Assembly (NCBI GenBank): GCA_030531135.1
Contig: JAUNOJ010000007.1
Coordinates: 1-18,871, forward strand
From: Sutterellaceae bacterium
GTDB taxonomy: Bacteria > Pseudomonadota > Gammaproteobacteria > Burkholderiales > Burkholderiaceae_F
DNA length: 18,871 bases
Reading direction: 5' to 3'
Position numbers and translations under genes: made by a program. This document shows positions 3,608 through 6,441 of the stretch, in pieces. Numbering within the stretch: position 1 is the first letter of the stretch; each line of letters opens with the position of its first letter. Below the pieces are notes generated by a model that was given only the letters and a program-made list of their open reading frames with translations, searched no databases and had not been told where the DNA came from.

Positions 3608-4741
3608 TTAGAACTTGTGACGGAGGCCGACCACGAAGGTGTAGGCGGTGAGGTCACGGTCATCCGTACCCTTAACGCCGTAATCAACAGAGTCCTGCAT
3701 CCAGCTGGCGACGGCGTACACATCGGTACGCTTGCTGAACGGATAGTCGTAACCGGCGGTCACGACATAGCGCTGGAATTCGTTGTCTTTGTTGGCAGCA
3801 GCCGTAACGCTATCAGCAGCTTCGGCGTCAACATAGCCGATACCGGCCAAAACTTTACCGCCGGCGACAGGAACGCTAGTGGACACGTTCAAGCCATAAC
3901 CCTTGATCTTGCCGGCGAAGCCGACAGAGGAATCCTTGATCAGGTTACCGAACGGAGCAACTTCGTCGAAGTACTGAGCACCCAAGAAGAGCTTGGCAAC
4001 TTCGAAGTCATAGGTGAAGCCCAACGTCACGGTCAAGCTGTCATCCACTTCAACGGGAGCACCGTTCCAGGACTTGTAGTTGATGGAGTCAACTGCAAAG
4101 TAAGCACCGATCGGGCCGTTGTCGTAGGTAGCACCGATAACATAGTAGCGGTTGCTCGAAGATTCGTTTTCGACATTGCCCTCAACCGTATCACCCATAG
4201 AGTACTGTGCATAGACCTTTGCGCCAGCGAAGCTGGGGGTTTCGTAGGCAATCGTGTTGTCACGAACGGTGTCAAGAGCGAAAGTGGAACCGGCCTGAGC
4301 AGAATAGTTACCCCAATTGGACGTACCGAAAGCAGACGTGTAGTTGCCAACCTTGCCCCAGGAGCTCGTACCCTGGTTGATGGAACCGATCTTACCGAAT
4401 GCAATCTTACCGAAAGCACCCTGAACGAAGAGGGATGCTTCACGATTGAAGAAAGAATTCTTGTCCTTCAAAGCACCGGTATCGCCACTGAAACCGTTTT
4501 CGAGGACGAAGCCGACGGTCAAACCGTTGCCGAGGTCTTCCGTGCCCTTAAAGCCGAAACGGTTACCGGACTGCTGGCCGGCTTCCATGGAGAGCTTATC
4601 GGTAGCATCAGAACCATTGTCGAGATCAATGTGGTTGTACATCAAGCTCGTATCCAACACACCGTAAAGGGTAACGTCGGCAGCCAAAGCAGAACCGGCA
4701 AAAGCGCCGAGAACGGCGACTGCAGCCAAAGTCTTTTTCAT
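3608..4741 (-). CDS. Gram-negative porin (betaproteobacterial trimeric type), paralogue 1
   Basis: Outer-membrane general diffusion porin, 377 aa. Residues 1-20 are a signal peptide (MKKTLAAVAVL...GSALA, cleaved before ADVTLYG). The mature chain opens with the porin-typical DVTLYG strand, contains SRFG-like and GTEDLGNGL motifs, and ends in GLRHKF, the terminal Phe needed for Bam-dependent assembly. The ATG at 4741 is used because CGGAGAAAC lies 8 nt upstream. The upstream in-frame codons belong to the RNA leader, not the protein. It lies in tandem with the paralogue at 5092-6228; the first 20 residues are identical, while the loops differ. The two genes have separate promoters and terminators. 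It presumably passes small hydrophilic solutes; specificity cannot be read from sequence. Confidence 0.95.
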   Translation of the reverse strand: MKKTLAAVAVLGAFAGSALAADVTLYGVLDTSLMYNHIDLDNGSDATDKLSMEAGQQSGNRFGFKGTEDLGNGLTVGFVLENGFSGDTGALKDKNSFFNREASLFVQGAFGKIAFGKIGSINQGTSSWGKVGNYTSAFGTSNWGNYSAQAGSTFALDTVRDNTIAYETPSFAGAKVYAQYSMGDTVEGNVENESSSNRYYVIGATYDNGPIGAYFAVDSINYKSWNGAPVEVDDSLTVTLGFTYDFEVAKLFLGAQYFDEVAPFGNLIKDSSVGFAGKIKGYGLNVSTSVPVAGGKVLAGIGYVDAEAADSVTAAANKDNEFQRYVVTAGYDYPFSKRTDVYAVASWMQDSVDYGVKGTDDRDLTAYTFVVGLRHKF

Positions 4742-4762: not shown

Positions 4763-4842
4763 AAGCAAGAAATATTTTTCGAAAAACCGCCGGGGTGGAT
4801 ATGTTCTGAGACTCTTGCTTTGTGTAACAGAACTCCCGGCGG
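4763..4842 (-). promoter_or_regulatory. Structured 5' leader RNA of porin gene 1
   Basis: On the minus strand an outer 8-bp stem (4835-4842 with 4787-4794) and an inner 6-bp stem GTTCTG/CAGAAC (4828-4833 with 4803-4808) enclose a 19-nt loop. The 3' side has an 8-nt bulge ATATCCAC. The outer stem is followed by TTTTTCGAAAAA (4775-4786), so it resembles an intrinsic terminator. The loop segment AAGCAAGA (4813-4820) is perfectly complementary to TCTTGCTT (4763-4770), which ends 21 nt before the start codon. A paralogous leader at 6250-6332 keeps the fold with compensating changes. Confidence 0.7.
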
Positions 4843-4871
4843 GTGTCCCAGCAAGAGACGTAGTCATTGTG

Positions 4872-4911
4872 GCATTAAGCAACACTACTTACTAAATCAA
4901 AAATGAAATTT
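4872..4911 (-). promoter_or_regulatory. Conserved promoter block of porin gene 1
   Basis: Three blocks are shared, at identical spacing, with the second porin gene. On the plus strand they are GCATTAAG (4872-4879), CTTACTAAAT (4888-4897) and TGAAATTT (4904-4911). The same order and the same 8-nt and 6-nt gaps occur at 6359-6398. This most likely contains the core promoter, but no hexamer pair is convincing enough to fix -35 and -10. Confidence 0.55.
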
Positions 4912-4920
4912 GAGGGTCTT

Positions 4921-4953
4921 GGGGGGGGTATACCCTAGGACAAAACTGGTACA
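4921..4953 (-). promoter_or_regulatory. G8 tract plus palindromic operator-like element, porin gene 1
   Basis: Plus-strand layout is eight Gs (4921-4928), then TATACCCTAGG, then a spacer and TGGTACA (4947-4953). The core contains two overlapping palindromes, GGGTATACCC and CCTAGG. The element sits upstream of the core promoter, where an activator would bind. The copy at 6408-6441 has nine Gs but is otherwise equally placed. Confidence 0.55.
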
Positions 4954-4973
4954 GAATGCGATGAAAGGTGTTG

Positions 4974-4996
4974 ATTTGCCTAAAAGTTAGGCAAAT
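4974..4996. repeat. Perfect 10-bp inverted repeat upstream of porin gene 1
   Basis: ATTTGCCTAA (4974-4983) and TTAGGCAAAT (4987-4996) are exact reverse complements around AAG. Dyads with such a short centre are typical regulator operators; a short RNA hairpin is also possible. It lies between the porin 2 terminator and the shared porin element, and has no counterpart upstream of porin gene 2. Confidence 0.5.
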
Positions 4997-5012
4997 ATGC
5001 ATTGCGGAGAAA

Positions 5013-5047
5013 TGAAAATCCCCAAGAATCAAAAGATCCTCGGGGAT
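5013..5047 (-). terminator. Intrinsic terminator of the second porin gene
   Basis: On the minus strand ATCCCCGAGGATC pairs fully (13 bp with G-U wobbles) with GATTCTTGGGGAT around a TTTT loop. It is followed by TTTCATT. It lies 45 nt past the stop of the porin gene at 5092-6228 and separates the two porin transcripts. Confidence 0.85.
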
Positions 5048-5091
5048 GCAGTCTTAAATCAAGAGATGCTGTTTATACAGCGATCAACTGA

Positions 5092-6228
5092 TTAGAACTT
5101 GTGACGGAGACCGACCATGAGAGAGTAGGTGTTGGGATCAACGTCATTTGCGGGAGTTGCCTTGTCTTCATACTTTTCTTGCAAGTAGGTAGCCACGGCA
5201 TAGACGTCGGTGCGCTTGCTCAACGGATAGTCGTAACCGGCAGACACAACCCAGCGGGTCAGATCAAAGTCAGAGGCAGCGCTATCGGCTTCGCTGGCGT
5301 CATAATAACCGACACCGAACATGGCCTTACCGCCGGCAACCGGAGCGTCAGCGGAAAGAACAACGCCGTAGCCCTTGCTATAACCAGTCTTGTGAGAGTC
5401 GGTGGAAATGGTCTTACCGGCAACTTCGTCAAAGTACTGAGCGCCGAGGTAAACCTTCACAACTTCGAAGTCATAAGAACCACCGAACGTAACGGTCAAG
5501 CTATCGTCAATGTTATCGGCATTGGTGATACCGGGGCCAAAGGTACGATAGTTGATGGAGTCGACAGCGAGGTATGCAGCAACAGGACCGTTGTTGTAGG
5601 TGGCGCCGATGGAGTAGTAACGATCACTCGTGGATTCGTTTTCATCACCGGTGTAGTCCTTTTCGTCAACCGTATACTTGTTGCCACCCATGCTGTACTG
5701 AGCGTAAACCTTCACACCGGCAAACGACGGGGTTTCGTAGGAAATCATGTTGTCATACATTGCGCCGGTGTGGAAGACGGTGCCGATCTGAGCAGAGTTA
5801 TCCCAAGAGGTGCCGAAAGCAGACAACATACCGGCCTTACTCCAGGAGCTCACGCCCTGATTGATGGAGCCCATACGACCGAAGGCGATCTTACCGAAAC
5901 CGCCCTGCAAGAAGATGGAAGCTTCACGATGGAAGAAAGAATCCTTGTTCCTCAAAGCGCCGGTGTCGCTGTCGAACTGGTTTTCAAGGATGAAGCCAAC
6001 GGTCAAACCGTTGCCGAGGTCTTCCGTGCCCTTCAAGCCGAAGCGAGAGCCGGACTGCTGACCGGACTTCATAGCGAAGCTGTCGGTATTGTCAACAGTA
6101 GCCTTATCAAAATCGGTGTGCTGATAAGCAAAGCCCGTATCGACGATACCGTAGAGGGTAACGTCAGCAGCCAAAGCAGAACCGGCGAAAGCGCCAAGAA
6201 CGGCGACTGCAGCCAAAGTCTTTTTCAT
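5092..6228 (-). CDS. Gram-negative porin (betaproteobacterial trimeric type), paralogue 2
   Basis: Outer-membrane porin, 378 aa, with the same 20-residue signal peptide as its neighbour and the same opening strand (ADVTLYG) and terminal GLRHKF. Shared internal blocks include GTEDLGNGLTVGF, ETPSFAG-KVYAQYSMG, and GYDYP-SKRTDVYAVA near the C-terminus. The differences cluster between these blocks, as expected for surface loops. The ATG at 6228 has TTGGAGAAAC at an 8-nt spacing. Upstream in-frame codons correspond to the structured leader. The gene follows the downstream end of the MFS transcript, from which it is separated by a terminator. Tandem duplication followed by loop divergence explains the pair; they may serve different growth conditions. 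Confidence 0.95.
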   Translation of the reverse strand: MKKTLAAVAVLGAFAGSALAADVTLYGIVDTGFAYQHTDFDKATVDNTDSFAMKSGQQSGSRFGLKGTEDLGNGLTVGFILENQFDSDTGALRNKDSFFHREASIFLQGGFGKIAFGRMGSINQGVSSWSKAGMLSAFGTSWDNSAQIGTVFHTGAMYDNMISYETPSFAGVKVYAQYSMGGNKYTVDEKDYTGDENESTSDRYYSIGATYNNGPVAAYLAVDSINYRTFGPGITNADNIDDSLTVTFGGSYDFEVVKVYLGAQYFDEVAGKTISTDSHKTGYSKGYGVVLSADAPVAGGKAMFGVGYYDASEADSAASDFDLTRWVVSAGYDYPLSKRTDVYAVATYLQEKYEDKATPANDVDPNTYSLMVGLRHKF

Positions 6229-6249
6229 TTTTGTTTCTCCAAAACAATT

Positions 6250-6332
6250 AGCAAGAATGTCTTTTTCGAAAAAGCCGCCGAGGTGGATATGTTGCAGAGA
6301 CTCTTGCTGGGTATGCCGCAACTCTCGGCGGC
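6250..6332 (-). promoter_or_regulatory. Structured 5' leader RNA of porin gene 2
   Basis: Same fold as the leader at 4763-4842. The outer stem GCCGCCGAG/CTCGGCGGC is 9 bp (6324-6332 with 6274-6282), the inner stem GTTGC/GCAAC is 5 bp (6318-6322 with 6291-6295), and the loop is 22 nt. The same single A lies on the 5' side and the same ATATCCAC bulge on the 3' side. CTTTTTCGAAAAAG (6261-6274) follows the outer stem. The loop AGCAAGA (6302-6308) is complementary to TCTTGCT (6250-6256), upstream of the ribosome binding site. Confidence 0.7.
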
Positions 6333-6407: not shown

Positions 6408-6441
6408 GGGGGGGGGTATACCCTAGGGCGAAAATGGTACA
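6408..6441 (-). promoter_or_regulatory. G9 tract plus palindromic operator-like element, porin gene 2
   Basis: Nine Gs (6408-6416) precede TATACCCTAGG, a spacer and TGGTACA on the plus strand. This is the element seen at 4921-4953 with one more G. The stretch beyond it (6442-6551) holds only weak dyads, for example CATAAC/GTTATG at 6483-6499, and no gene. Confidence 0.55.

Follow-up and report, generated by a model that had tools for sequence, protein, structure and literature searches.

The window, meaning the whole 18,871-nucleotide stretch of DNA that was analysed, is contig 74 of a draft genome (G000) and carries two tandem porin genes, A and B, both on the minus strand and each with one leader upstream of it (Table 1). 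Codons 3–6 of gene B read AAG ACT TTG GCT, as do those of gene A, and are mismatched to the apical loop of the leader hairpin. The same genome contains 12 Porin_4 matches, among which the covariance model found the leader only at A and B. A terminator-like hairpin is seen at 5018-5047 (minus strand), 3' of gene B and ahead of leader A, in a scan that yields equally many sites in shuffles; its position between gene B and leader A suggests that A has a promoter of its own. The promoter scan found no promoter, and a TTGAGT-N17-CACAAT-like candidate, picked by eye, is not claimed as shown.

Table 1. Positions of the two porin genes and of the leader elements in the window
Feature	Position	Strand	Basis or remark
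Porin gene B, start MKKTLAAVAVLG	5092..6228	-	Porin_4 6.2e-47
Porin gene A, start codons as in B	3608..4741	-	Porin_4 5.9e-43
Leader B, 5' hairpin P1	6333..6351	-	P1 in 11/11 leaders, arms set by visual inspection
Leader B, main hairpin P2 (outer and inner stems, A/8-nt bulge, large loop)	6275..6331	-	Folding, alignment
Leader B, apical loop seed CAGCAAGAGTCT, complementary over 12 nt to the start of leaderless porin G000:C347	6298..6309	-	
Leader B, 8-nt bulge ATATCCAC, 6 nt (7 with G-U) complementary to the 5'UTR hairpin loop of G000:C347	6283..6290	-	Weak alone (173/3000 shuffles as good)
Leader B, U-tract CTTTTT, then CGAAAAA	6262..6274	-	
Leader B, TCTTGC, loop complement, possible pseudoknot partner	6251..6256	-	
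Leader A, 5' hairpin P1, loop CTCTTGCT	4845..4859	-	
Leader A, main hairpin P2	4787..4842	-	Folding, alignment
Leader A, apical loop seed AGCAAGAGTCT, complementary over 11 nt to the G000:C347 start	4809..4819	-	
Leader A, 8-nt bulge ATATCCAC	4795..4802	-	
Leader A, TTTTTCGAAAAA (U-tract, then A-tract)	4775..4786	-	
Leader A, TCTTGC, loop complement	4765..4770	-	

The initial annotation had described one fold for both leaders, and its parts are all present, namely outer stems of 8 bp, a single unpaired A across from ATATCCAC, inner stems and TTTTTCGAAAAA. The minimum free energies of the two leaders are -29.1 and -31.1 kcal/mol, with 1 and 3 of 200 dinucleotide shuffles as stable (z -2.87 and -2.61, respectively). 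The compensatory differences between A and B hold up; a single pair of tandem paralogues is weak evidence by itself, and the full set of 11 leaders agrees with these differences. Selection on RNA structure, which had been argued from that pair, is backed by this wider alignment through two-sided changes and a covariation score above that of shuffles. Across the 11 distinct leaders 92.3% of cells pair and two-sided changes occur at 7 of 13 pairs, in an alignment fitted to the structure, which favours structure in such pairing counts. The covariation score is 0.334 as against 0.178 +/- 0.025 in shuffles, none of 500 reaching as high, and does not exceed 0.145 when the partners are slid by 1–3 columns. 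Further pair types, one of five covariation measures, showed no excess over shuffles in the same leaders (171 of 500). RNAalifold returned essentially the same fold from the 11-leader alignment, with 12 pairs.

Upstream of the main hairpin is a small 5' hairpin, P1, that the initial annotation had missed. All 44 of its counted cells pair, and U-A and C-G alternate at the second pair; the arms were chosen by eye, and permuted 3' arms of the 8 distinct forms match this 44/44 pairing in 160 of 20,000 cases. The conserved apical loop of P2 had likewise been missed. Its sequence, GCAAGAGT, is identical in 10 of the 11 leaders and comprises the most conserved bases of the leader, which is firmly a structured, conserved RNA. 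In leader A the P1 loop CTCTTGCT is complementary to the leader's own P2 loop AGCAAGAG, a feature absent from leader B, and leader A may be self-inhibited through pairing of these two loops. The second leader of G015 (G015b; L060 / L170, G015 C11) has the loop GCTAGAG instead of GCAAGAG, and its P1 carries CGCAAGAG, complementary to its own downstream CTCTTGCG.

The 11 leaders, detected by BLAST and then by covariance model (E <1e-8), occur in 8 of 10 genomes of one Duodenibacillus-type genus, each directly upstream of a Porin_4 match. Nine of them match by construction, because they were used to build the first covariance model, while those at G011 C21:132753 and G015 C11:2066 are new; a strong match to the model is absent from G012 and G014. 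A wider family across the Burkholderiales did not emerge from the genomes searched, with no strong match outside the genus among 399 genomes of the order and 41 relatives, under stricter filters by which remote relatives could be missed. The best match outside the genus, in G068 (L076, E 0.0049 and 5e-4), is without the GCAAGAG loop. A protein-based scan of genome contigs gave 15 pattern matches, from which no relatives were confirmed. A scan with the leader DNA pattern gave 12 stretches in genome contigs and no match in viral contigs. Five of these stretches are leaders of the genus (L085, L086, L090, L091, L096), in the match regions of L092 and L094 no leader-plus-porin arrangement was seen, and L087, L088, L089, L093 and L095 were set aside by organism, unread.

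The leader RNA belongs to no named Rfam family. The initial annotation knew of none, and Rfam 15 bears this out, with no match overlapping a leader in the window or in nine related loci: three weak matches lie elsewhere in the window at thresholds up to E 5, and five in the related loci at up to E 2, none at leader positions. Rfam includes the MicF and MicC families, and no match to either is among these results. A search of the open literature found no paper on porins in Duodenibacillus or on a porin small RNA in Sutterella; as far as this search reaches, and if the regulatory role holds, the leader would be the first RNA regulator described in this sparsely studied genus.

The proposal that the leader is a transcription attenuator stands in part. 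Eight of the 11 leaders end in a GC-rich stem plus U-tract, which makes termination plausible, but the remaining three (G013, G011a and G011b) keep the fold without a U-tract, and termination is therefore not what the conservation centres on. Unlike an efficient terminator, P2 combines a large loop with a bulge, and a terminator scan restricted to loops of 3–8 listed two sites without P2, a number also reached in shuffles. A further element missed before, TCTTGC, is complementary to the loop and lies 11–16 nt past the U-tract in all eight leaders that have one. This near-constant position would suit a pseudoknot in cis, one able to conceal the loop in read-through mRNA. The three other leaders (L053, L059 and L055, of G011 and G013) contain neither U-tract nor TCTTGC nor an exact paralogue target, their fold and loop being as elsewhere, and could possibly be an ancestral or cis-only form.

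Were the leader nothing other than an attenuator, P2 and the U-tract would stop transcription of its own porin unless signalled, with the loop binding a protein or ligand and not RNA. Covariation of the stem and the U-tract that follows it in most leaders suit such a device, yet no alternative antiterminator fold shared by the leaders was observed, the U-tract is dispensed with in three of them, and in the 10 genomes the exact 12-mer complement of the loop occurs, apart from the loops themselves, only at paralogue starts; we regard this explanation as improbable.

That complement is the central observation. The 12-mer AAGACTCTTGCT, complementary to the loop AGCAAGAGTCTT, occurs eight times in the 10 genomes, three times in loops and five times at codons 3–6 of Porin_4 genes, as compared with four occurrences of the reversed 12-mer used as a control. 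The five target porins belong to G000 (contig 347), G015, G016, G017 and G018. Mismatch-free runs between loop and target extend over 11 nt for leader A of G000, 12 nt for leader B, 13 nt in G015, G017 and G018, and 9 nt in G016, and among 2000 shuffled 55-nt start segments such a run is reached in 3 cases for leader A and 10 for G016, and in none for leader B, G015, G017 and G018. Sixteen porin starts are closely similar, and within this set the 12-mer is present in all five leaderless genes and in none of the 11 leader-bearing ones, which have TTG or TTA for Leu, or other differences, at the site. The porin starts are homologous, and the five targets therefore amount to about three lineages, not five independent cases. 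By genome, the 12-mer target accompanies terminator-type leaders in five of six and is found in none of the other four (Fisher p 0.048, relatedness ignored). The exception is G019, which is 94% complete and has a terminator-type leader, yet no 12-mer target was found in it; nor was the 12-mer found in G014.

Duplex energies, computed with accessibility ignored, agree with the exact matches. The analysis of porin starts used 71 of 83 Porin_4 rows, 70 of which give an ATG start, after 11 fragments or late starts and G014:C59 had been left out. For all six loops of five genomes, G015b set apart, the leaderless paralogue ranks first among the tested porin starts, ahead of the leader's own gene by 5–9 kcal/mol and of the runner-up by 3–8 kcal/mol. 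The best partner of G015b is another leader porin (-18.5 vs -14.4 kcal/mol for its own gene), and no porin start stands out for G013 and G011. A conserved loop complementary to the start of a paralogous porin points to a trans-acting RNA, beside or instead of a cis attenuator.

The same data can be read in cis, the loop pairing with the start of its own mRNA or with TCTTGC and thereby tuning translation or stability of its own gene, and the match to the paralogue merely reflecting homologous starts. Self duplexes have energies that cannot be neglected (-8.3 to -19.1 kcal/mol across the 11 leaders, accessibility again ignored), the own gene is the best partner among the four porins of G019, TCTTGC is placed as a cis pseudoknot would need, and the target-less leaders G013, G011a and G011b keep the loop. 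Against this, those same three leaders retain the loop where there is no TCTTGC to pair with, the exact complement separates leaderless from leader-bearing genes without exception, and the paralogue is preferred over self by every one of the six loops. We consider a purely cis role unlikely, while taking it more seriously than attenuation by itself. It is far less probable that the leader serves as a sponge, or is itself targeted by some unseen third RNA, and does not repress the paralogue. Sponges derived from 5'UTRs, ChiZ and IspZ, are known in E. coli (PMC7815308), but the loop is antisense to porin starts, so that one third RNA could not pair with both through the same seed, and the 12-mer, searched as an exact match, is confined in the 10 genomes to loops and porin starts.

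A second possible contact involves the 8-nt bulge on the 3' side of the loop, which matches over 6–8 nt a predicted hairpin loop in the 5'UTR of the porins that bear the 12-mer. The match is GTGGAT in G000, TTGGATTC in G015 and G017 (7/8 for G018) and TCGGAACA in G016, where six of its bases form the UTR hairpin loop, and the bulge and UTR sides both differ between the three lineages. Shuffled UTRs were as good in 173 (G000), 56 (G015), 53 (G017), 152 (G018) and 12 (G016) of 3000 trials. Of the 68 porins with 130 nt upstream that entered these tests, 63 are non-targets, and UTRs as good were found among these in two instances each for G000 and G016, one for G018 and none for G015 and G017. The bulge of G018 matches the G000 UTR and that of its own target equally well, and TCGGAACA also occurs in the G016 leader itself, past the U-tract. 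The upstream contact lies 67–118 nt before the target start codon, and the two contacts follow one another in antiparallel order, as a two-site antisense RNA requires. The matches are each modest alone, and the second site is suggestive. In G016 a third match of 10 nt, between P1 and the target UTR, is not antiparallel with the other contacts and is not claimed.

The reading that we favour, with somewhat better than even confidence, is that the attenuated porin leader would double as an antisense sRNA that contacts a paralogous porin mRNA at two sites, amounting to a MicF-like switch housed within a leader. The leader would be transcribed as a two-hairpin RNA with P1 at its 5' end, followed by P2 and the U-tract. 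In terminator-type leaders, transcription would often end at the U-tract, yielding an sRNA of about 85 nt (83–87, with ends assumed), and would otherwise continue into the porin gene. Two single-stranded segments of P2 would be exposed in the sRNA, the apical loop, (A)GCAAGAGTC, which is predicted to pair in the cell with codons 3–6 of the leaderless paralogous porin mRNA, and the 8-nt bulge, which would pair with the hairpin loop in the 5'UTR of that mRNA. The antiparallel contacts, together with the position of the loop contact in the initiation region, make repression the likely outcome for translation of the paralogue; repression through pairing at the first five codons has been described (PMC6127932). 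The leader's own gene would be spared through its mismatch at codons 3–6, and in read-through mRNA the downstream TCTTGC could hide the loop. Silencing of the paralogous porin in trans is, as an unproven proposal built on sequence comparison, on balance the probable outcome. If true, a cell making one pore could switch off another, with a porin's attenuated leader silencing its own paralogue and a synonymous codon mismatch protecting self, which would be a compact means of exclusive expression within a gene family. With regard to possible partner proteins, an Hfq gene is present in 9 of the 10 genomes and went undetected in the draft to which the window belongs (87.6% complete), and ProQ was found in none of the 10.

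Enterobacteria supply the textbook example of porin choice by small RNAs; there the sRNAs have genes of their own, and micF is located beside ompC. MicF and MicC act on ompF and ompC (PMC1489923), and the likeness would be that an RNA linked to one porin controls the sister porin by pairing near the translation start. MicF, however, is a separate gene, whereas the candidate described here is the porin's own attenuated leader, unrelated in sequence and fold, so the resemblance to MicF would be one of mode of action. MicC also acts on the coding sequence of ompD (PMC11347162), and there too a porin mRNA is paired within its coding region, but by a separate sRNA without leader origin. In its biogenesis the leader RNA would resemble trans-acting sRNAs derived from 5'UTRs, such as Vsr217 of malK (PMC8265627) and Rli51 of mpl, the latter also an attenuator (PMC11394854). 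These two share with ChiZ and IspZ a short RNA that ends in the 5'UTR and acts on other RNAs, but a paralogue of the downstream gene as target, with self spared by a codon mismatch, was not found described for any of the four in the sources as consulted. Pairing would be closest to that of OxyS and fhlA, a two-site kissing interaction that engages the target both in its leader and in its coding sequence (PMC2946933). OxyS is a separate stress sRNA whose leader contact lies over the ribosome site, while the upstream contact proposed for the porin leader falls far ahead of the start codon. In Bordetella pertussis, a betaproteobacterium, a MicA-like sRNA is reported to act on ompA (PMC12235514). 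The combination of a leader-derived sRNA, a paralogous porin as target and the sparing of self was not found in the open literature searched.

Leader and target porins were expected to form two protein clades, and this was not borne out, with four label changes for four targets in the porin tree. The tree holds 18 of 20 planned rows, two loci being too short, was made without four partial porins (two of G018, G016 C18 and G019 C59) and is weakly resolved, with 2 of 15 inner branches starred. In G015 and G017 (L090, L091) leader and target porins are convergent, with a further gene in the roughly 2 kb that separate them. The target porin bodies of these two genomes share 59% identity overall and 97% in the first 75 columns; bodies thus diverge while the first codons stay alike, as if the 5' modules had remained in place and the bodies had been swapped. 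A tentative extension, which we hold to be doubtful, is an RNA-enforced mutual exclusion of two porin expression sites, a leader site providing the two-site sRNA and a target site defined by codons 3–6 and the 5'UTR hairpin, with bodies swapped by recombination and 5' modules fixed. If true, it would constitute a surface-protein switch of a gut commensal in which identity resides in synonymous codons and leader RNA, not in the porin body.

Some further observations concern the regions upstream of these porin genes. In a second genus of the family, tandem porins (L045, L046, L047) have different leaders with a GCAGAA/TTCTGC hairpin, and a run of G lies in the promoter-like region of the first porin gene. 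An element resembling TCTC[A/G]GGG[T/A] is present in the window at 4921-4939 and 6408-6427 (minus strand), and is found 173–208 nt before the start in 10 of 11 leader porins and four of five target porins. It adjoins a run of 8–9 C in 9 of the 11 leaders, and may represent an activator site common to these genes, with a tract prone to slippage.
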